DNA from: an uncultured SAR86 cluster bacterium
Lineage (GTDB): Bacteria; Pseudomonadota; Gammaproteobacteria; Magnimaribacterales; D2472
Length of the DNA stretch: 35,356 nt
NCBI GenBank assembly: GCA_902516285.1
Contig: CABXXT010000012.1
Span: 1-35,356 of the forward strand
Direction of reading: 5' to 3'
Below the pieces are notes generated by a model, which saw nothing but the letters and a program-made list of their open reading frames with translations, did not search any database and was not told the DNA's origin. How positions within the stretch are numbered: the first letter of the stretch is position 1; every line of letters starts with the position of its first letter. Shown piece by piece: positions 3,040-11,689 of the stretch. The translations under genes were made by a program, and so were the position numbers.

Positions 3040-3546
3040 ATGGTTATAAGTTTATTTAAAAAAATTAGTATTACATATTTTTTCTTAATTTGTATTATCC
3101 TAAATGCAGATATGATGTTAGATGCAAACGATAAATTAGATCTTCCTCTCCCACTTCCATATGATGGAAATGAAATAAGCGTTGAAGAAGTAAACAAATT
3201 TTTATCTCAGTCAATTGCTGAAAATAAACAACCTATTATTATTTTTGGTGCAAATTGGTGTCCTGATTGTAGAATTTTTTCTGGGACAATTGATATTCCT
3301 AAAATCAATGAATTTATAGAAACATATTTCAATATCTTATATATCGATGTAAAGAGATATGAGATTAATATGAATTTAATTGAGTATTTTGACATACCTT
3401 CTGAGGAAGGTATTCCAAGAGTCTTAGTCTTTGATTTTAACAAAAATGTTATTAATAAGAGTTCAACAACTGAATGGAGAACTGCTAGAGATAGAAGTTC
3501 ACAGGATATATTTAATTTTTTTCAGGAAATGAAAAAGTCCAGCTAA
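3040..3546 (+). CDS. Periplasmic thioredoxin-fold protein (WCPDC)
   Basis: 168 residues. Residues 1-29 form a signal peptide or signal anchor with a hydrophobic run (ITYFFLICIIL). The redox motif W73-C74-P75-D76-C77 follows a beta strand (IIIFGAN), and GIPRVLVFD supplies the cis-proline strand next to the active site. The CPDC dipeptide differs from CGPC (thioredoxin) and CPHC (DsbA). The protein probably reduces or isomerises disulphides outside the cytoplasm, or is a degenerate TlpA-like member; the partner is unknown and no cytochrome c maturation or dsb genes are nearby. Its stop is interlocked with that of the convergent MFS gene (CTAA at 3543-3546). Confidence 0.8.
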   Translation: MVISLFKKISITYFFLICIILNADMMLDANDKLDLPLPLPYDGNEISVEEVNKFLSQSIAENKQPIIIFGANWCPDCRIFSGTIDIPKINEFIETYFNILYIDVKRYEINMNLIEYFDIPSEEGIPRVLVFDFNKNVINKSSTTEWRTARDRSSQDIFNFFQEMKKSS

Positions 3547-4817
3547 TCAAACTGTTTTTCTGCACTAGCAAAAATCAAATAATATAAACCGCCTATAACT
3601 AATATTCCTGAACATACGTAAAAAATCAAATTCCATGAGTTTGAAAATTCAAGCACATATCCCGCAACTATTGGGCTAAATATTGCGGCAATCATGCCAA
3701 TACTACCCGCCATTCCAACAAGGGATCCTGTATATTTTGGTCCTAGATCAGCATGATTTACTCCAAATCCTCCTTGGCATATTCCTGAACATGTATTTAC
3801 CAAGCACAATAGAACTAAAATATTAACTAACGAGTCTTGAAATGGAATTAAAATAAGAAAAATCGAAGAACCAAAAAATCCTATTGTATTTACAGTTTTT
3901 CTTACAGTTATAACTTTAAAGCCTCTTTTTATTAATGAGTCAGCTAATATTCCACCAAATAAAAGAGCAAACACGGAAACAACACTTGGAATAAGAATTA
4001 AATATATAAAAAGACTTGAGTCTAATTCAATCCCCAAACCTCCAGTTGATAATGGGTCATTCACATATCTTGGCAAATATGACAAAAAAGTATACAAAGC
4101 CCAATTATTACAAAATGTTGCAATTGCAATTGCTAGAAATGGCTGATTTTTAATGAGTTTTGATAAAGGGATTTTTGGAGGTGTCTCTTTAGAGGGTGCT
4201 TCTTTAATTATATAATCAAGTTCTTCACTAGAAATAGATACATGATCCTCTGGATATGAAGTTACATTTCTTTGCCAAAAAAAATACCAAAAAATTCCAA
4301 GAATACCAAAAGAGTAAAAAACCCATTCCCAAGAATATCTAGAGATGATTATGGCTGCTACAACATAGCCAAAAACTGTTCCTACTGATATACCGCTGTT
4401 TGTGATAGCTATTGATCTTGTTCTCTCATTAAATGGTATCCATCTTGCATAAATTGCATGCCATGATGGGAATGTGATTCCTTCACCCAGACCCATTAGT
4501 ACTCTTATTAATATTAATAGCCAAAGACCACTATATGCAAAAGCAGGAGTAATAACAGTAAAGAAAGACCATAATAATAGTCCATATCCTAGGACTTTTT
4601 TACCGCCATATTTGTCAGCTAAATAGCCTCCCAATGTCATAGAAACCATGTAGCCTGCATAGAATGAACCTAGAATTAATCCAACTTGAGATTCACTCCA
4701 GCCGAATTGATTTTGCATAGGAATTATTGCAACAGAAATATTTACTCTATCTATGTAGCAGATAAAAACTGCCAGGAATGAATAAAAAATGACTTTAAAT
4801 CTGATTGGCATAGTCAT
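3543..4817 (-). CDS. MFS transporter, anion:cation symporter (ACS/SLC17-like) family
   Basis: 424 residues with 12 predicted helices. YIDRVNISVAIIPMQ in helix 1, the loop GGYLADKYGGKKVL between helices 2 and 3, and RVLMGLGEGITFPSWHAIYARWIP in helix 4 are typical of the anion:cation symporter group (hexuronate, sialate, tartrate, phosphate and related organic anions). These carriers usually import an organic anion with H+ or Na+. The substrate cannot be deduced. The gene follows argH on the same strand after a ~50-nt gap and could partly share its transcript, but nothing ties its substrate to arginine. A second ATG two codons in (4811) is an equally possible start. Confidence 0.87.
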   Translation of the reverse strand: MTMPIRFKVIFYSFLAVFICYIDRVNISVAIIPMQNQFGWSESQVGLILGSFYAGYMVSMTLGGYLADKYGGKKVLGYGLLLWSFFTVITPAFAYSGLWLLILIRVLMGLGEGITFPSWHAIYARWIPFNERTRSIAITNSGISVGTVFGYVVAAIIISRYSWEWVFYSFGILGIFWYFFWQRNVTSYPEDHVSISSEELDYIIKEAPSKETPPKIPLSKLIKNQPFLAIAIATFCNNWALYTFLSYLPRYVNDPLSTGGLGIELDSSLFIYLILIPSVVSVFALLFGGILADSLIKRGFKVITVRKTVNTIGFFGSSIFLILIPFQDSLVNILVLLCLVNTCSGICQGGFGVNHADLGPKYTGSLVGMAGSIGMIAAIFSPIVAGYVLEFSNSWNLIFYVCSGILVIGGLYYLIFASAEKQFD

Positions 4818-4866: not shown

Positions 4867-6147
4867 CTATTTCCCATTTAGTCTCTTTTCAAGAATTTCT
4901 AGATTAAGATTTTTAGGAGATCCACTTGAGGACTTAGTTATATTCTTTTTTGATATTTGTAATTTGCCTTTGCTATCTTTAACAGCTTGATAGGCATCTC
5001 TAAAAGGCATACCTTTTGAAACTAACTCATAAACTTGCGACGTCATCATCATTTCATCATCAATAAATTCTAAAGATCTTTTTTTATTTATCTTAATTGA
5101 TCTAACTAAGTCTGGTATCAATTCAAGAGTTTTTTCAGTAATTTCAAAACTTGAAATTAAGCTTTTCTTTGTTATTTGTAAATCTCTATGATAACCGGTT
5201 GGAAGTGATAACAAGTTTTCAAGTTCTGAGTAATTTCCTGCAATTATTGAATAATTTCCTCTCATAATTTCAATTACATCTGGATTTTTTTTGTTTGGCA
5301 TAATTGAGGAACCAGTTAAGTAAATATCACCTATAGTCAATAAATTAAACTCTTGAGATAAGAACAAGCTCATATCCCACGCAAACTTTCTTATGTCCAA
5401 CATTGACTGTTTTAGTGAGTTAATTATTTGCATTTCATATTTGCCTCTACTGTTTTGAACATAAAGAGAGTTCAGCTGAATTCTCTTAAATCCTAATTCC
5501 TTTGTTACCATTTTTCTATTTAGAGGAATATCAACACCATATCCTGCAGCAGTTCCTAATGGATTACTGTCTATCCAATCAATTGTTAAACCATTTAAAT
5601 CATAATTATCAATAAAAGCCTCTGCGAAAGAGGAGAACCAAAGCCCCCATGTTGAAGGCATTGCTCTTTGAAGATGAGTGTATCCAGGCATTGGGAGATC
5701 ATGGTATTTTTTTGCATATTGTAGAAAAGTTTTAGCAATTCTTTTGTTAATTTTATTAATATTTTTTAAATTGTCTTTTGCATACAATCTTAACGCCACT
5801 TGAATTTGATCGTTTCTGCTTCTACCTGTATGAATTTTTTTACCAGTCTCTCCAAGCTCTTTAGTGAGATAGAACTCAATAGCTGAATGACAGTCTTCAT
5901 ATTTATTCGTTAATTTAAATTTATTAGAAATAAATTTTTTATTAAGGTCTTTTAAGCATTTAATAATTTTTCTAGATTCAGAGGAGCTTAGAATTTTAAT
6001 ATCTTTTAATCCATTAACATGAGCGATTGAAGCCTTGATGTCATAAATGAATAAATTTTTATCTAAATCGATATCATTTCCTGATAGAAAATCGTCTATA
6101 GCTTTTAGTCCTTCATTTCCTTTTGAGGACCAAATTTTTTTATTCAT
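4867..6147 (-). CDS. argH: Argininosuccinate lyase
   Basis: 426 residues of the fumarase/aspartase superfamily. It cleaves argininosuccinate to arginine and fumarate, the last step of arginine synthesis. The signature loop GSSIMPNKKNPD starts at about residue 279 and carries the catalytic serine; TGRSRNDQ and GYTHLQRAMPSTWG are the other two conserved active-site regions. It is somewhat shorter than the ~460-residue E. coli enzyme but of a length typical of the Xanthomonas type. Its start overlaps the argC stop by 8 nt, so translation is probably coupled. It is the last gene of the arginine unit. Confidence 0.95.
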   Translation of the reverse strand: MNKKIWSSKGNEGLKAIDDFLSGNDIDLDKNLFIYDIKASIAHVNGLKDIKILSSSESRKIIKCLKDLNKKFISNKFKLTNKYEDCHSAIEFYLTKELGETGKKIHTGRSRNDQIQVALRLYAKDNLKNINKINKRIAKTFLQYAKKYHDLPMPGYTHLQRAMPSTWGLWFSSFAEAFIDNYDLNGLTIDWIDSNPLGTAAGYGVDIPLNRKMVTKELGFKRIQLNSLYVQNSRGKYEMQIINSLKQSMLDIRKFAWDMSLFLSQEFNLLTIGDIYLTGSSIMPNKKNPDVIEIMRGNYSIIAGNYSELENLLSLPTGYHRDLQITKKSLISSFEITEKTLELIPDLVRSIKINKKRSLEFIDDEMMMTSQVYELVSKGMPFRDAYQAVKDSKGKLQISKKNITKSSSGSPKNLNLEILEKRLNGK

Positions 6148-7087
6148 ACGTAATTCCAGTTATATTGTTTATTCCTAAAGAAATGTTTAAATTTTGAATA
6201 ACTTGTGTAGCAGCTCCTTTAAGTAAATTATCTAAAGTGCAGCATACCTTTAAAGTTTTTCCTGAAGCATCCAAAGAAAATCCCCCTAATTTTGTAATAT
6301 GCTTGTTTATTGTATCTTGGATCATTGGTATATCTTTAGTTATTTGAACCAATGGAAAATCTTTATAAAATTCTTCATATAATTCAATTAGATCATCAAT
6401 TAGAACTTTTTCCTTGAGAGAAAAATGTGACGTCATTAAAATTCCTCTAAAAAAACTAGCAACATTTGGAGTGAATGAAATATCTTGATAGCAATGAAAA
6501 CTAACCTCTTTTTCATGACTATGCCCATTTATGTTGTAAGGGATTATATTATTTTCAAGATTCTTTAAATTGTTTCTTTTGTTTGGTGAAGCTCCAGCTC
6601 CACTGTATCCAGAGATTCCAAAAGAATGAATTTTTCCTTTGATCATTGATTTAATTGGAAGAATTGAAAATTGCATCGCTGAAGCATAACAGCCTGGATT
6701 ACTAATCCTAGTAGATACATTTGAATTCATTTTTGATAACTCAGGAATACTATAAAACCAATTTTTATTAAATCTATTATCTGAACTTATATCGATAATG
6801 GTGATATTTTTATATTTGTTATCTATTAAATTTATGTAAGGCTCTGATGCATTATTTGGGAGAGCTAAAATTACAAAATCGATATTTAATAGATCAATAT
6901 TTTTATTTAGTTGTTCATATTTTAAACTTTTATCTTTAGAGTAGATGTCAACCAAAGTGCCTGCAGCTGAGGAAGAAAAAACTTTTGCTAAGTAAAAATG
7001 GTCATGATTATTAAGTATTTTGATAATTTCAGATCCGACGTAACCTCTTCCTCCAAGAATGGCAACTTGTTTTACTTTAGTACTCAT
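6140..7087 (-). CDS. argC: N-acetyl-gamma-glutamyl-phosphate reductase
   Basis: 315 residues. It reduces N-acetylglutamyl phosphate to the semialdehyde with NADPH, the third step of arginine synthesis. The N-terminal Rossmann motif GGRGYVG is at 12-18, the catalytic cysteine is C133 in SNPGCYA, and GHSHEKE carries the conserved histidine region. Length and motifs fit the Xanthomonas-like class. It overlaps the upstream kinase/synthase gene by 11 nt and argH by 8 nt, which places it inside one polycistronic message. Confidence 0.94.
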   Translation of the reverse strand: MSTKVKQVAILGGRGYVGSEIIKILNNHDHFYLAKVFSSSAAGTLVDIYSKDKSLKYEQLNKNIDLLNIDFVILALPNNASEPYINLIDNKYKNITIIDISSDNRFNKNWFYSIPELSKMNSNVSTRISNPGCYASAMQFSILPIKSMIKGKIHSFGISGYSGAGASPNKRNNLKNLENNIIPYNINGHSHEKEVSFHCYQDISFTPNVASFFRGILMTSHFSLKEKVLIDDLIELYEEFYKDFPLVQITKDIPMIQDTINKHITKLGGFSLDASGKTLKVCCTLDNLLKGAATQVIQNLNISLGINNITGITYE

Positions 7088-8384
7088 AAGTTATAGATAA
7101 CGGTTGTTCAATTGCATACCTAATGCATCCGGAGAGCTCATCTAGATCTTCAATACCGATCCAATAAATATTCCACTCACTGTGCTTTTGAAAGCCATCA
7201 CATGCATTTTTATAATAACTATTAATATTATTATTTGGTCTTGAGCGCCAAAATATTTTAGGATGGTCTAACATCATTTTTTTCATAATTGCCTTACCAA
7301 GTCCCTCTCCTCTTGCATCATTCATTACAGCAAACTTATCCATATATGCTGCTTTTTCTTCATACCTCATTACAATTACAGCTCTATCACAAGAACTTAA
7401 ATAGTATTTTTTGTTTCCGTCAAAAAAATTTTTATTTAATTTTCCTTTAAATGATTTTTCTAAAATAGATTGAACCGTACTTGATTGGTCTAAGCTAACT
7501 GATTCAAACTTATTTATCTTATGACCGAGCTTTACAAGGGTTCCAGACCCTGCGTCAGTAAATAATTCTCTTGTAAGATTAAGAGGTTTTGTTATGGAAG
7601 CTGAACTGTTTTTAGGTAATAAATTCAATAAATTATTAATTTGTTTTAGTTTGTGTTTCATGCCAGAATGGAGCCAGTCTTTTGACATCAAATACTCATA
7701 ATCATCTTTTAAATTAATATTTGATATGAGAACATTATTTTGGTCTAAAATCCCACCAAGCTCGCTTAAAAAAATTACCTTATCTGGAAGAATTTTCTTT
7801 GAAATTGCTAATGTAGCATTATCAGCATTAATATTTACCAGTTGACCCTCTATAGTTCTTCCCATAGGAGATAAGATTGGAATTTCTCCATCATCAATAG
7901 ATTTTTTTATGCTCGCAATATTAATCTCACATACTTCACCAACAAAACCTAATTTGTTATCTTTAATTTCACAAACAAAAGCATCATCATAAAAAGCTTT
8001 TGATGTAACATTTTTTTTCTCTAAGGCATTTGTGATTTTCTTACTTTCAGATGTGAAAACGGAATGTGCAACGTCAAGAACTTCACTGGTAGTTATTCTT
8101 TGGCCATCTAAAAAAGAAAATTCTATTTCATTTGCATCTAGCTCACTTGAGAGGCTAGGCCCACCACCATGAATAATAATAGGCTTTAAACCAACTTCAT
8201 GAAGAAAAGATATAGAGGAAACTAAGTTTTCGAGATCATTTTGTATTACTGCTCCACCAACTTTTATTACTGCAAATCTAAAATCATCAGATGAGAATCT
8301 TTCAAGATACTTACGTATCTCTTTTTCGCTACTCATCCCACTTAAAAGCTTAAGAATAGTTTCTTTTGTATAAACCTTGTTCAT
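7077..8384 (-). CDS. argB: Bifunctional N-acetylglutamate kinase/synthase (ArgB with C-terminal GNAT)
   Basis: 435 residues with two domains. Residues ~30-290 are an amino-acid kinase fold with KVGG (41-44) and HGGGP (72-76), which should phosphorylate N-acetylglutamate. Residues ~300-435 are a GNAT acetyltransferase with the acetyl-CoA loop RGEGLG at 358-363, which should make N-acetylglutamate from glutamate. This is the vertebrate-like NAGS/K arrangement known from Xanthomonas and relatives, and it explains why no separate argA is present. The N-terminal helix region (ETILKLLSGMSSEKEIRKYLERF) is characteristic of the group. In this family arginine can inhibit the enzyme allosterically. It lies 2 nt after argG and overlaps argC. 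Confidence 0.92.
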   Translation of the reverse strand: MNKVYTKETILKLLSGMSSEKEIRKYLERFSSDDFRFAVIKVGGAVIQNDLENLVSSISFLHEVGLKPIIIHGGGPSLSSELDANEIEFSFLDGQRITTSEVLDVAHSVFTSESKKITNALEKKNVTSKAFYDDAFVCEIKDNKLGFVGEVCEINIASIKKSIDDGEIPILSPMGRTIEGQLVNINADNATLAISKKILPDKVIFLSELGGILDQNNVLISNINLKDDYEYLMSKDWLHSGMKHKLKQINNLLNLLPKNSSASITKPLNLTRELFTDAGSGTLVKLGHKINKFESVSLDQSSTVQSILEKSFKGKLNKNFFDGNKKYYLSSCDRAVIVMRYEEKAAYMDKFAVMNDARGEGLGKAIMKKMMLDHPKIFWRSRPNNNINSYYKNACDGFQKHSEWNIYWIGIEDLDELSGCIRYAIEQPLSITYEY

Positions 8385-8386
8385 GT

Positions 8387-9577
8387 TTATTTCTTATTTA
8401 AACCTCTCCACGTAGAAGTACTCTGTCCATACAATTTAATAAATCCTATAGATTCTTTCTCATCCCATGATGCTGATTGAGCATACATTGCGTCTTTTTT
8501 CTGAAGAATTTTTTTTGATTCAACTGATATAGATTCAACTTTGCCGGGACTCAATAACAAGGTAACCCTTCCACTCACTGATTTTTGTGAATTCTCTAAG
8601 AATGATTCTAGATCTTCAATCAAAGGATCATAGTAAAAACCTTTGTATACTAGCTCTACCCACTTTTCACCAACGTTCGTTTTAAAAGAATTTTGTAAAT
8701 TTGTAAAAACGGCATCCTCTAATGCTTTATGTGCCGACATGAGAACACTAATACCTGGAGATTCAAATAAAATTCTTCCCTTTATTCCTATGATTGTATC
8801 TCCAGTATAAAGATCTCTTCCTACTCCATATTTTCCAGCTTCTTTGTTTAGAATTTTTAGTAATTCTGATCCTTTTAGACTTTTTCCATTAAGTTTTTTA
8901 GGTACGCCTTTAAAAAAATCAATTGAAATTTTCTTTTCTTTAGATGGATATTTATTAGGTTTATTACATAAAACATATGTTTGATCTTTTGGCTCCTGCC
9001 ATTTATCTATTTCTGAACCAGAAATAGTAACCCCCATGAGATTTTCGTTAATACTATACTTAGAGTTTGAGCTGGATATTTTATGTCCTCTGCCTTTTAG
9101 AAAATCTATTTCATAATTTCTAACATCACTCACTTTTGCTTGAATTTCTCTGATTGGAGAAACAATCTCATAATTTCCTAGTGCTTTTATAGACATATCA
9201 AATCTAACTTGATCGTTTCCCATACCCGTACATCCATGAGCAATTAAATTAGTCTTTAATTTTTTACATAAATTAACTGCTTCAGAGACTATTAAATATC
9301 TATCAGAGCACAACACAGGATACTTACCTTGATATAAGGAGCCTGACCAGATCAGTGGTGTTAAAATTTGTTGCCATAGTTTTGTTTCAACATTTACACT
9401 ATGGTGTTTTTTTGCACCTAATTTTTTTGATTTATAGGAAATCTGTTTTTCAATATTCTTTGAAATACCGCCAGTATTTACAAAAATAGTATGTACCTCA
9501 AAACCTTTATCAATTAGGTAAGGAACACAAAAACTTGTATCTAATCCACCTGAAAAAGCTAATACTATTTTTTTCAT
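8387..9577 (-). CDS. argG: Argininosuccinate synthase
   Basis: 396 residues. It condenses citrulline and aspartate using ATP. The PP-loop SGGLDTS is at 9-15, and GCTGMGNDQVRFD and the GKYPVLCSDRYL region bind citrulline and aspartate. The sequence is of the Xanthomonas-like ArgG type. Its ATG overlaps the argF' stop by 4 nt (ATGA), a translational-coupling arrangement. In the acetylated pathway, acetylcitrulline must be deacetylated before this step; no deacetylase gene lies beside it. Confidence 0.94.
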   Translation of the reverse strand: MKKIVLAFSGGLDTSFCVPYLIDKGFEVHTIFVNTGGISKNIEKQISYKSKKLGAKKHHSVNVETKLWQQILTPLIWSGSLYQGKYPVLCSDRYLIVSEAVNLCKKLKTNLIAHGCTGMGNDQVRFDMSIKALGNYEIVSPIREIQAKVSDVRNYEIDFLKGRGHKISSSNSKYSINENLMGVTISGSEIDKWQEPKDQTYVLCNKPNKYPSKEKKISIDFFKGVPKKLNGKSLKGSELLKILNKEAGKYGVGRDLYTGDTIIGIKGRILFESPGISVLMSAHKALEDAVFTNLQNSFKTNVGEKWVELVYKGFYYDPLIEDLESFLENSQKSVSGRVTLLLSPGKVESISVESKKILQKKDAMYAQSASWDEKESIGFIKLYGQSTSTWRGLNKK

Positions 9578-10581
9578 TTTGTAAGATCCCCTAAAAGATT
9601 AGTTAATAATGATTTCTGAACATGTAATCTATTTCCAGCCTCTTCTATAGCTAAGCAATAATCTGAATCCATAACTGCATCTGTCGCTTTAACATTTCTC
9701 CTAAGTGGAAGGCAGTGACTAAAGACACCATTATTAGTCATATTCATTTTTTTACTATCAACAATAAAATTTTTATATTTATCCCTAATAATTTTTTCAT
9801 TCTCAGGATCATTATAAAAATTTATTGAACCCCAGCTTTTTGCATAAACAATATCAGCATCTTTATATCCATTATCAATATCATGAGTTATTTCAAAGGT
9901 TGTTTTATTATTTGCACACTGAAGGTTAGCTTCGTCTAAAAAGCTTTCATGTAATAAATAGTCCTCTGTAGGGCAAAGAAGTTTAATATTCATTCCAAAT
10001 TTACTTGCAATCATAAGCGCAGAGTTTGCAACAGCAGTATTCAATGCCTTGGGATGATAAGTCCACGTAAGCAAATAATTTTTCCCAGACAAGTCACCAA
10101 ATTTCTCTTGTAAAGTTAATATATGTGCCAATTCTTGACATGGATGGGTAATTGTTTCCATATTAATAACTGGTACAGATGAATATTTGGCAAAAGATTT
10201 AATAACATTGTCAGATAAATCTTCCTCTAGGTTCTCAAATTTTGGGAATGCCCTGACTGCAATTAAATCACAATATTCTGACAACACTTGTGCAACTTCT
10301 TTGATATGCTCCTCAGATTCATTATTCATAATCTGATCTGGTTTAAATTCAATTGGCCATGCATCTTTTCCAGGATGAAGAACGACAGCGATGCCTCCAA
10401 GTTGTTGAATTCCTAGCTCAAAACTAGTTCTTGTTCTCATTGATGGATTAAAAAATAACAAAGCAACAGACTTATTTTTAAGTGTTGATTGAAATTTATT
10501 GATCTTTAAATATTTGGAATAATCTAAAATTTCTTGTATTTCAAGTTTTGACCAATCTTTTGTTGTTATAAAATTTTTCAT
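9574..10581 (-). CDS. argF': N-acetylornithine carbamoyltransferase (AOTCase)
   Basis: 335 residues. The carbamoyl-phosphate site is SMRTR at 47-51 and HPCQ follows METIT. Three features separate this enzyme from ordinary ornithine carbamoyltransferase: the GKDAWPIEF loop (W75, matching W77 of the Xanthomonas enzyme); E90 in SEEHI, matching the Glu that selects N-acetylornithine over N-succinylornithine; and HCLPLRRNVKATDAV, with K298 matching the carboxylated lysine. It should therefore carbamoylate N-acetylornithine to N-acetylcitrulline. It is the first enzyme gene of the arginine unit, preceded by the attenuator. Minus-strand AGAGA lies about 11 nt ahead of the ATG. Confidence 0.94.
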   Translation of the reverse strand: MKNFITTKDWSKLEIQEILDYSKYLKINKFQSTLKNKSVALLFFNPSMRTRTSFELGIQQLGGIAVVLHPGKDAWPIEFKPDQIMNNESEEHIKEVAQVLSEYCDLIAVRAFPKFENLEEDLSDNVIKSFAKYSSVPVINMETITHPCQELAHILTLQEKFGDLSGKNYLLTWTYHPKALNTAVANSALMIASKFGMNIKLLCPTEDYLLHESFLDEANLQCANNKTTFEITHDIDNGYKDADIVYAKSWGSINFYNDPENEKIIRDKYKNFIVDSKKMNMTNNGVFSHCLPLRRNVKATDAVMDSDYCLAIEEAGNRLHVQKSLLTNLLGDLTK

Positions 10582-10601: not shown

Positions 10602-10625
10602 AAAAAAACCCAGCATAAGCTGGGT
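10602..10625 (-). terminator. Intrinsic terminator / attenuator hairpin ahead of argF'
   Basis: On the minus strand ACCCAGC (10625-10619), loop TTAT, then GCTGGGT (10614-10608) make a perfect 7-bp stem followed immediately by T residues down to 10602. It lies 20 nt before the argF' start codon, so it would stop transcription of the arginine operon unless prevented from forming. The 5' arm is also complementary to the segment at 10652-10643, the hallmark of an attenuator. Confidence 0.88.
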
Positions 10626-10652
10626 CAAACATACACAAGTAATGATCCAGCT
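10618..10652 (-). promoter_or_regulatory. Predicted antiterminator hairpin of the arg leader
   Basis: Minus-strand AGCTGGATCA (10652-10643) pairs with TGACCCAGCT (10627-10618) in nine of ten positions: a continuous 6-bp block, one A/C mismatch, then 3 bp. It uses most of the 5' arm of the terminator, so the two structures are mutually exclusive. The upstream strand begins inside the leader-peptide stop codon, so a ribosome resting there would cover it and let the terminator form. Confidence 0.8.
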
Positions 10653-10682
10653 ATTCAACCATATCCCGTCTTCGTTGTGTAT
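10631..10682 (-). promoter_or_regulatory. Protector stem of the arg leader
   Basis: Minus-strand ATACACAA (10682-10675, the codons just before the three Arg codons) is perfectly complementary to TTGTGTAT (10638-10631). This 8-bp stem encloses one strand of the antiterminator and cannot coexist with it without a pseudoknot. It should form when the leader is untranslated, leaving the terminator free. A ribosome stalled on the Arg codons would melt it. Confidence 0.7.
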
Positions 10683-10695
10683 TTAATATATTCAT
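10651..10695 (-). CDS. argL: Arginine leader peptide MNILNTQRRRDMVE
   Basis: A 14-codon ORF (ATG at 10695, TAG at 10653-10651) upstream of argF'. Codons 8-10 are CGA AGA CGG: three consecutive arginines immediately before the stem-forming region. This is the design of amino-acid biosynthetic leader peptides (compare the His run of hisL or the Trp pair of trpL). Its role would be to sense charged tRNA-Arg by ribosome stalling, not to act as a peptide. CGA and CGG appear uncommon beside AGA in the neighbouring genes. No Shine-Dalgarno is visible; promoter placement suggests a very short 5' leader. The symbol is descriptive. Confidence 0.85.
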   Translation of the reverse strand: MNILNTQRRRDMVE

Positions 10696-10703
10696 TGATG
10701 ATG

Positions 10704-10742
10704 AGTATATATATATAAAATATTTTGTAAACTTATTGTCAA
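10704..10742 (-). promoter_or_regulatory. Candidate promoter(s) of the arginine operon
   Basis: Two readings fit on the minus strand. TTTACA (10731-10726), a 16-nt spacer and TATACT (10709-10704) would start transcription near 10697, only 2-3 nt before the leader ATG. Alternatively a perfect TTGACA (10742-10737), a 17-nt spacer and TTTATA (10719-10714) would start near 10707. The TTGACA overlaps the stop codon of the laminarinase gene. The long AT run makes the exact -10 uncertain. Confidence 0.55.
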
Positions 10743-11689
10743 AGCTTTTCGTACTCAATCCAATCAATTAAAAGCCTATGATCATCTGGATTTTGCTTAT
10801 TAGAGCAATCTTTGTCGACACAAAAAGCGCTCTTATCCACCCAGTAATCGTCATATTTTCCTCCAACAGCAACATTAATAATCATGTAATAGCTTCTATT
10901 GAAAGGATATGCATACTTTTTAAATTCTGGATGTGAGTTATCAATAGAGAAATAAGGAGTTTTTTCATTATCAATGAAAAACTCAATGCTATTTTTTTTC
11001 CAAAGCATAGATATCGAGTGAAATTTTTCCTGAAACTTTACATATTTTGGAATTAGAACCTCTCCAACAAGTGTAGATTTATTTTTATAATCCACTCCAA
11101 AATGAAGGGCTGAACTGGAAACATTAGAAATTCTACCCCTATTTTCCAATATATCTATTTCACCACCTTGAGGCCAATCGCTATCATCATTTGGCATCAA
11201 CCAAAATGCAGGCCAAAAACCTATTCCAGTTGGAACCTTAAAACATATTGTAATTCTTGAAGGATATATAAATTCCATTAAAGATTTAGTATTTATTCTG
11301 GCTGAAGTATATGCAAACCCTCGATATTTCTTTTGAATTGGTTGAATTTTTAATAAGCCATCTTCAATAAATAAATTATCATTTGTATAACTTTTATCAT
11401 TATTGCTTGGTTTCATATAATACTGTAACTCTCCATTACCCCAACCAGGAATGTACTGCCCTTTGTATCTAAAACCATTTGACGTCGAATAATTCCACTT
11501 TGACTTTAAAAGGTCTGAGTTATTAAATTCCTCATTCCAATTCAAATTGATTTCATTTGTTCTTTTCCTACAGTACGAATTACTTTCAACCTTGTAATCG
11601 TCAGAAATAACAGTTGTTGTTACAACTATGTCATCTTCATCGGAATGAATAGATGAAAAAAATGAAATTAAAATAATAAATTTAAGCAT
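10739..11689 (-). CDS. Secreted GH16 beta-glucanase (laminarinase-like)
   Basis: 316 residues with a signal peptide (MLKFIILISFFSSIHS). The GH16 catalytic motif EIDILE is at 177-182; E177 is the expected nucleophile and E182 the acid/base, and the extra residue in ExDxxE is the beta-bulge form seen in laminarinases and lichenases. Flanking conserved blocks are GWGNGELQYY, GFWPAFWLMP, HFGVDY and the C-terminal IDWIEY strand. It probably hydrolyses beta-1,3-glucan such as algal laminarin outside the cytoplasm. No CBM, TonB-dependent receptor or other glycoside hydrolase is nearby, so this is not a full polysaccharide utilisation locus. No terminator separates its stop from the arg leader. Confidence 0.92.
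   Translation of the reverse strand: MLKFIILISFFSSIHSDEDDIVVTTTVISDDYKVESNSYCRKRTNEINLNWNEEFNNSDLLKSKWNYSTSNGFRYKGQYIPGWGNGELQYYMKPSNNDKSYTNDNLFIEDGLLKIQPIQKKYRGFAYTSARINTKSLMEFIYPSRITICFKVPTGIGFWPAFWLMPNDDSDWPQGGEIDILENRGRISNVSSSALHFGVDYKNKSTLVGEVLIPKYVKFQEKFHSISMLWKKNSIEFFIDNEKTPYFSIDNSHPEFKKYAYPFNRSYYMIINVAVGGKYDDYWVDKSAFCVDKDCSNKQNPDDHRLLIDWIEYEKL

Follow-up and report, generated by a model that had tools for sequence, protein, structure and literature searches.

The arginine biosynthesis operon of a SAR86 cluster bacterium, argF'-argG-argB/A-argC-argH, is very probably controlled by ribosome-mediated transcription attenuation in response to charged tRNA-Arg, as suggested by comparative sequence analysis and folding models of the leader ahead of argF' (10695–10602, minus strand; Table 1). 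The stretch of DNA analysed, hereafter the window, comprises 35,356 nucleotides and belongs to a genome of 1.08 Mb that is 81% complete (G000). The parts of the element, their conservation, the covariation of stem 1:2, the geometry of the switch and the absence of the repressor ArgR are shown by sequence comparison and modelling, and from these we infer that arginine is the signal and that read-through is regulated. The gene order behind the leader is that of the acetylated arginine pathway. Directly after argH lies an MFS transporter gene (3543–4817) resembling phosphate/galactonate transporters, which is possibly co-regulated. The upstream neighbour of the leader (10739–11689) encodes a secreted beta-glycanase-like protein (EglC, weak match), in place of which some related loci carry a tRNA-like sequence.

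Table 1. Coordinates of the leader, its predicted promoter and the operon genes in the window
Feature	Position	Strand	Remark
-35 element TTTACA, predicted leader promoter	10726..10731	-	spacing conserved in SAR86 leaders
-10 element TATACT	10704..10709	-	end of -10 lies 6–9 nt before the start codon in 43/43 leaders
Leader peptide ORF MNILNTQRRRDMVE, 14 codons + TAG	10651..10695	-	frame kept in 28/28 SAR86 argF' loci with terminator
Protector stem strand 1, ATACACAA	10675..10682	-	pairs with 10638–10631; covariation
Arg codons CGA AGA CGG	10666..10674	-	invariant CGG at codon position -5 counted from the stop
Leader stop TAG	10653-10651	-	inside the antiterminator 5' strand
Antiterminator 5' strand TAGCTGGATCA, leader stop included	10643..10653	-	repeats the terminator 3' arm in direct orientation
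Protector stem strand 2, TTGTGTAT	10631..10638	-	perfect 8-bp stem with strand 1
Intrinsic terminator GACCCAGC-TTAT-GCTGGG, then 7-T tract	10602..10626	-	base-by-base check, fold z, covariation
argF' (N-acetylornithine carbamoyltransferase)	9574..10581	-	NF003384, 520 bits vs cut-off 288
argG (argininosuccinate synthase)	8387..9577	-	TIGR00032, 297 bits vs cut-off 268
argB/A fusion (acetylglutamate kinase/synthase)	7077..8384	-	NF003387, 494 bits vs cut-off 426
argC (N-acetyl-gamma-glutamyl-phosphate reductase)	6140..7087	-	TIGR01850, 250 bits vs cut-off 233.6
argH (argininosuccinate lyase)	4867..6147	-	TIGR00838, 312 bits vs cut-off 279.5
MFS transporter, possible last operon gene	3543..4817	-	membership inferred from orientation and spacing

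Base-by-base inspection confirmed the elements described in a first-pass annotation of this DNA, namely the 14-codon ORF with CGA AGA CGG in a row, the 7-bp terminator stem with its 7-T tract, the 8-bp first stem, and the complementarity between antiterminator strand and terminator 5' arm, in which AGCTGGATCA (10652–10643) pairs with TGACCCAGCT (10627–10618) at nine of ten positions, the tenth being an A.C mismatch. Within the terminator, ACCCAGC (10625–10619) pairs with GCTGGGT (10614–10608), and the T tract (10608–10602) lies 20 nt ahead of the argF' ATG (10581). The whole leader folds with a z-score of -3.6, none of 200 shuffles being equally stable, and a covariance model scores the window copy, itself among the model's 22 source sequences, at 92.6 bits (E = 1.9e-19). 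Matches to this model were used only at 45 bits or above; those of about 40 bits and below were set aside, and the case inspected, a 36-bit match in the window's own genome, proved to be an ordinary terminator behind a rhodopsin-like gene. Such an arrangement is rare, as evidenced by the single-contig SAR86 relative G053 (1.23 Mb), where, of 44 strict terminator-like sites, the one in the argF' leader alone is preceded by a copy of its own 3' arm.

The leader also has a predicted promoter of its own, TTTACA-N16-TATACT, which the earlier annotation had missed. Across 43 distinct SAR86 leaders (22 ahead of argF' and 21 ahead of a receptor gene discussed below), the best -35-like hexamer is located 16 nt upstream of the -10 element in 39, of which 32 have four or more of six matches. 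Transcription is thus predicted to start at about 10697, some 2 nt before the leader ATG. A Shine-Dalgarno-like motif before the leader start codon is absent in all 43, and by sequence the SAR86 leader ORFs look leaderless, with 0–3 nt ahead of the start codon. This reading is favoured by analogy because the 5' end of the Xanthomonas RNA Xoo5, mapped by RACE, likewise falls 2 nt before the homologous ATG.

We propose that transcription would begin on the leader ATG or immediately ahead of it and that, when Arg-tRNA is scarce, a ribosome would stall at CGA AGA CGG and cover strand 1, leaving the antiterminator strand TAGCTGGATC free to pair with the terminator 5' arm, whereupon RNA polymerase would read into argF'. 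With ample arginine, translation would proceed to the TAG inside the antiterminator strand, where the ribosome would hide that strand, so that the terminator would form and transcription would end near 10602. Constrained folding of the leader with the ribosome-covered bases (assumed footprint 29 nt), as the first-pass annotation had suggested, gave this switch in the model: as long as the terminator 3' arm is still to be transcribed, the antiterminator has a probability of 0.99 when the ribosome sits over CGG, and of 0.00 when it sits over the stop, the latter value being partly a consequence of the footprint assumed and the former not. Mean probabilities over 37 leaders are 0.99 at CGG, 0.00 at the stop and 0.53 without a ribosome, and the remaining six leaders, including that of the window, behave in the same way at CGG and stop. 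Stalls with the A site anywhere from codon -7 to codon -3 permit the antiterminator, and those at -1 and the stop do not; permissive and blocking positions coincide with the Arg codons and the stop, respectively. Without a ribosome, SAR86 leaders form the antiterminator with probabilities anywhere between 0.00 and 1.00, and for the window copy the value is 0.97 before the 3' arm exists, indicating that stem 1:2 protects weakly in this copy and that an untranslated window leader may, according to the model, read through. The trp/his-type geometry claimed earlier therefore holds as far as a stall frees and the stop blocks the antiterminator, but the protection expected from stem 1:2 is weak in the window.

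Homologous leaders were aligned across SAR86, as proposed in the first-pass annotation. This type of argF' was found in 47 SAR86 genomes, one of them truncated at the gene start, and 28 of the 46 readable genomes have leader and terminator before the gene. All 28 keep an Arg codon, the reading frame, the terminator and a stop that falls within the antiterminator strand or adjoins it, with the rest of the peptide varying, and all have a 14-codon ORF with CGG as codon 10; no SAR86 argF' leader was found that has a terminator yet lacks the Arg codon or the frame. The 43 distinct leaders all contain an Arg codon; the ORF has 14 codons in 38 of them. Between start and stop the sole fixed element is CGG, at codon -5 relative to the stop in 41 leaders and at -4 in two. 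Sensing by Arg codons, as first read, is thus upheld in that such a codon is always kept, but a run of them is not required, some leaders having a single CGG.

Covariation was observed in the protector stem. An alignment-free permutation test of stem 1:2 gave a matched mean of -7.17 versus -5.45 ± 0.54 kcal/mol (p = 0.001), and stem 1:2 and terminator together hold 47 doubly changed cells versus 18.9 ± 3.6 in shuffles (0/500 as high) in an alignment that was model-fitted to the structure, which favours the count (A3; a first MAFFT alignment, A1, in which strand 2 of genus g1 was misaligned, was replaced). Nearly all of these cells are in stem 1:2, and slid structures give 11–19. The antiterminator pairs in 89% of cells and its core is nearly invariant within SAR86, its compensatory changes occurring only between families and from few variants; the compensatory changes anticipated for the stems were therefore borne out for stem 1:2 and, for the antiterminator, between families but not within SAR86. 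Mutually exclusive stems in a conserved RNA ahead of biosynthetic genes might also be expected of an arginine-binding riboswitch or of control by an RNA-binding protein, with the ORF incidental. It is, however, the frame, the Arg codons and the stop position that are conserved, while sequence outside the hairpins and the in-frame CGG varies, and the window element has no Rfam match at gathering threshold, where a tRNA elsewhere in the window is the sole match and those to the element are weak and far below thresholds. The riboswitch was rejected on this search, and we consider control of either kind very improbable compared with sensing by a translating ribosome.

The 18 argF' loci in which leader and terminator are absent all belong to SAR86 genus g5. 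Several of these (L023, L029, L047, L052, L054, L055, L057) have argF' without a terminator; in some g5 loci an ORF ending in RRRRSI or similar has its stop 34–38 nt before argF', and in others the upstream gene, panD-like by reading, ends in TQRLRSL or TQRIRSL. It is possible from these sequences that argF' of genus g5 is under a different arginine-linked control. In one further genome (G044, L136) a leader identical to that of G100 is followed directly by an MFS gene fragment, possibly through contamination or a deletion of arg genes, and this leader was left out of use.

Outside SAR86, a leader with an Arg run and a terminator precedes the homologous gene in all 30 Xanthomonadaceae genomes examined and in 23 of 24 readable genomes of the Kangiella group, the Arg runs being RARR and RRR to RRRRR. 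The antiterminator motif GCTGGG is common to SAR86, Xanthomonadaceae and the Kangiella group, and its variants keep pairing (GCCGGG/CCCGGC and ATCGGG/CCCGAC, as well as GCTGGG/CCCGGC via a G.U pair). An antiterminator competing for the terminator 5' arm has a mean z of -4.0 over 54 loci of the other families, among which the value for L109, with a misplaced arm, is to be disregarded. From the shared GCTGGG/CCCAGC motif we infer that the attenuators of the AOTCase operons of all three groups are homologous. The geometry is not carried over exactly from SAR86 to Kangiella itself, where the leader stop lies further downstream. In one Kangiella-group genome (L087), copies of the repeat GTGAAACTAGACAGTCAGAAA stand in place of the leader region upstream of argF', and leader and terminator are gone.

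The Xanthomonad leaders match the Rfam family Xoo5 (RF02242; L064:2647-2770, L066:1244-1367, L122:1131-1254), whose model begins 2 nt before the homologous leader ATG, and by this sequence match the Xanthomonas sRNA Xoo5 is the Xanthomonad version of the arginine leader. In Xanthomonas oryzae, Xoo5 has a 5' end determined by RACE and gives Northern bands of ~130 and ~100 nt (PMC3039613). Its cloned 3' end is ~10 nt before the terminator 5' arm and thus short of the terminator, so Xoo5 alone is no proof of termination there. Xoo5 is catalogued as an sRNA, and the words "arginine", "ornithine" and "leader" are absent from the text of that paper (PMC3039613). Such cataloguing, together with an upstream ORF that ends at 10739 in the window, would fit an independent small RNA, or a terminator that simply serves the upstream gene, with the leader ORF arising by chance. 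The dedicated promoter between the upstream ORF and the leader speaks against this, as do a frame, an Arg codon and a covarying stem 1:2 that are conserved in dozens of genomes with differing upstream sequence; the comparative data already contradict such an origin, and we give it hardly any credence beside attenuation.

ArgR is the DNA-binding repressor that controls arginine biosynthesis in gammaproteobacteria (PMC5343134). Control of the present operon by ArgR was rejected on a Pfam search, PF01316 having no match in the window's genome (81% complete). None of 106 SAR86 genomes scored over the curated cut-off in a search whose controls were positive in 9/14 genomes, and ArgR was likewise found in none of 119 Xanthomonadaceae genomes and none of 25 AOTCase-positive Kangiella-group genomes. 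Six genomes of the Kangiella group do encode ArgR, all of them without AOTCase, and no genome with this type of argF' was found to carry the repressor. Neither the attenuator element nor ArgR was found with the 18 AOTCase loci of SAR86 genus g5 or with five AOTCase loci of SAR92/Porticoccaceae and Wenzhouxiangella.

A second target of the attenuator is indicated by 21 further genomes of the window's own genus, which the covariance model matches at 46–87 bits (L131–L135, L137–L152). Here the leader precedes a gene for a protein of ~790 amino acids, with a start usually within 20 nt of the terminator, and one representative has the plug and barrel of a TonB-dependent receptor (PF07715, PF00593). 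These 21 genomes, five of which are 90–96% complete, have no close argF' match and no full argG match, and weak argG-like matches in ORFs of ~480–540 amino acids are probably other enzymes. They are therefore predicted from gene content to be arginine auxotrophs. Since argF' and argG are kept by only three genomes of the genus, the same prediction extends to most of its members, the window's genome being an exception there. Given the predicted auxotrophy, the receptor most likely serves arginine supply, and it probably imports arginine or an arginine-containing compound. Most receptor leaders have a single Arg codon. On balance we favour the view that the leaderless arginine attenuator is what corresponds to ArgR in gammaproteobacteria that use the acetylated pathway and has been redeployed, in SAR86 lineages that have lost arginine synthesis, to control a TonB-dependent receptor; uptake of arginine or of compounds containing it would then be the role marked out for this orphan receptor, with starvation read mainly via one codon almost absent from the genome.

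Codon choice in the leader bears on what the ribosome would sense. CGG accounts for 0 of 11,125 codons in the window and for 90 of 367,758 in G053, from which genome-wide codon use and tRNAs were taken, and is there the rarest of all sense codons. The tRNA-Arg set of G053 consists of ACG, TCG, TCT and CCT; a tRNA-Arg(CCG) was not found, and decoding of CGG must accordingly depend on wobble. These properties would suit a constitutive setting device, in which the near-absent CGG slows the ribosome whatever the arginine supply and so fixes the level of read-through or senses translation speed in general, and so would the invariance of CGG at a position where other Arg codons would serve and the many receptor leaders without any other Arg codon. 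Other families, however, place different Arg codons there (CGA CGT CGC; CGC CGT CGC CGC CGT; CGT GCG CGC CGA), and arginine, not CGG, is therefore the common feature. The genes behind the leader, moreover, make arginine or, where argF' and argG are missing from the genome, encode a receptor, and the Salmonella leader orf34 responds to arginine whether its Arg codons are rare or common (PMC6386406). We accordingly regard a constitutive device as improbable and retain sensing of charged tRNA-Arg. Codon choice in attenuators has been treated in terms of selective charging (PMC1183508), and by gene copy and codon usage this theory would favour AGA, not CGG, as the sensor codon (PMC1183508), so that the invariance of CGG is not fully explained.

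These findings bear on several questions. The usual description of gammaproteobacteria has ArgR in control of arginine synthesis; attenuation by ribosomes appears to take over this role in lineages that lack ArgR, which include abundant bacteria of the ocean and Xanthomonadaceae associated with plants. A likely function emerges for the so far unexplained Rfam sRNA Xoo5, whose family entry could be revised. In uncultured SAR86 that are probably auxotrophic, a TonB-dependent receptor is tied to arginine, which makes its substrate testable, and the leader is a candidate case of attenuation by ribosomes that load at the extreme 5' end of an RNA and sense one codon.

Attenuators of the trp, his, leu and thr operons combine a short leader peptide, in which the end product's own codons occur, with protector, antiterminator and terminator hairpins, the stop being placed such that a ribosome there hides the antiterminator. 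The present leader shares the end-product codons, the three hairpins and a stop positioned to hide the antiterminator (for theory see PMC1183508). It differs in its amino acid, arginine, in its apparently leaderless ORF without a Shine-Dalgarno motif, in having as few as one regulatory codon, in a stop that lies within the antiterminator strand, and in the TonB-dependent receptor as a possible target. The speF leader orf34 (DUF2618) of Salmonella is likewise a short ORF upstream of its gene, and a run of Arg codons in it senses arginine (PMC6386406), but orf34 governs an ornithine decarboxylase through Rho, RNase G and access to the ribosome-binding site and involves no intrinsic terminator (PMC6386406). 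Four longer leader peptides of the related families had no Pfam match, DUF2618 included, and the 14-residue SAR86 peptides are too short for this test. The carA leader of Pseudomonas aeruginosa likewise places a leader peptide before a gene of arginine and pyrimidine synthesis, but there attenuation is attributed to pyrimidines (PMC4997734). Xoo5 (RF02242) represents the same leader in Xanthomonads, though described as an sRNA, and the ArgR regulon has the same target, arginine biosynthesis, but acts through a DNA-binding repressor that was not found in attenuator-carrying genomes. A leader-peptide attenuator of arginine biosynthesis was not found in the open-access literature, to which the search was confined, and within that scope the result agrees with the first-pass annotation, to which attenuation of an AOTCase-type arg operon appeared new. 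The mechanism is of a known kind, and what appears new is the proposed control of AOTCase operons by arginine, the leaderless leader, the reliance on a single rare codon and the receptor as target.
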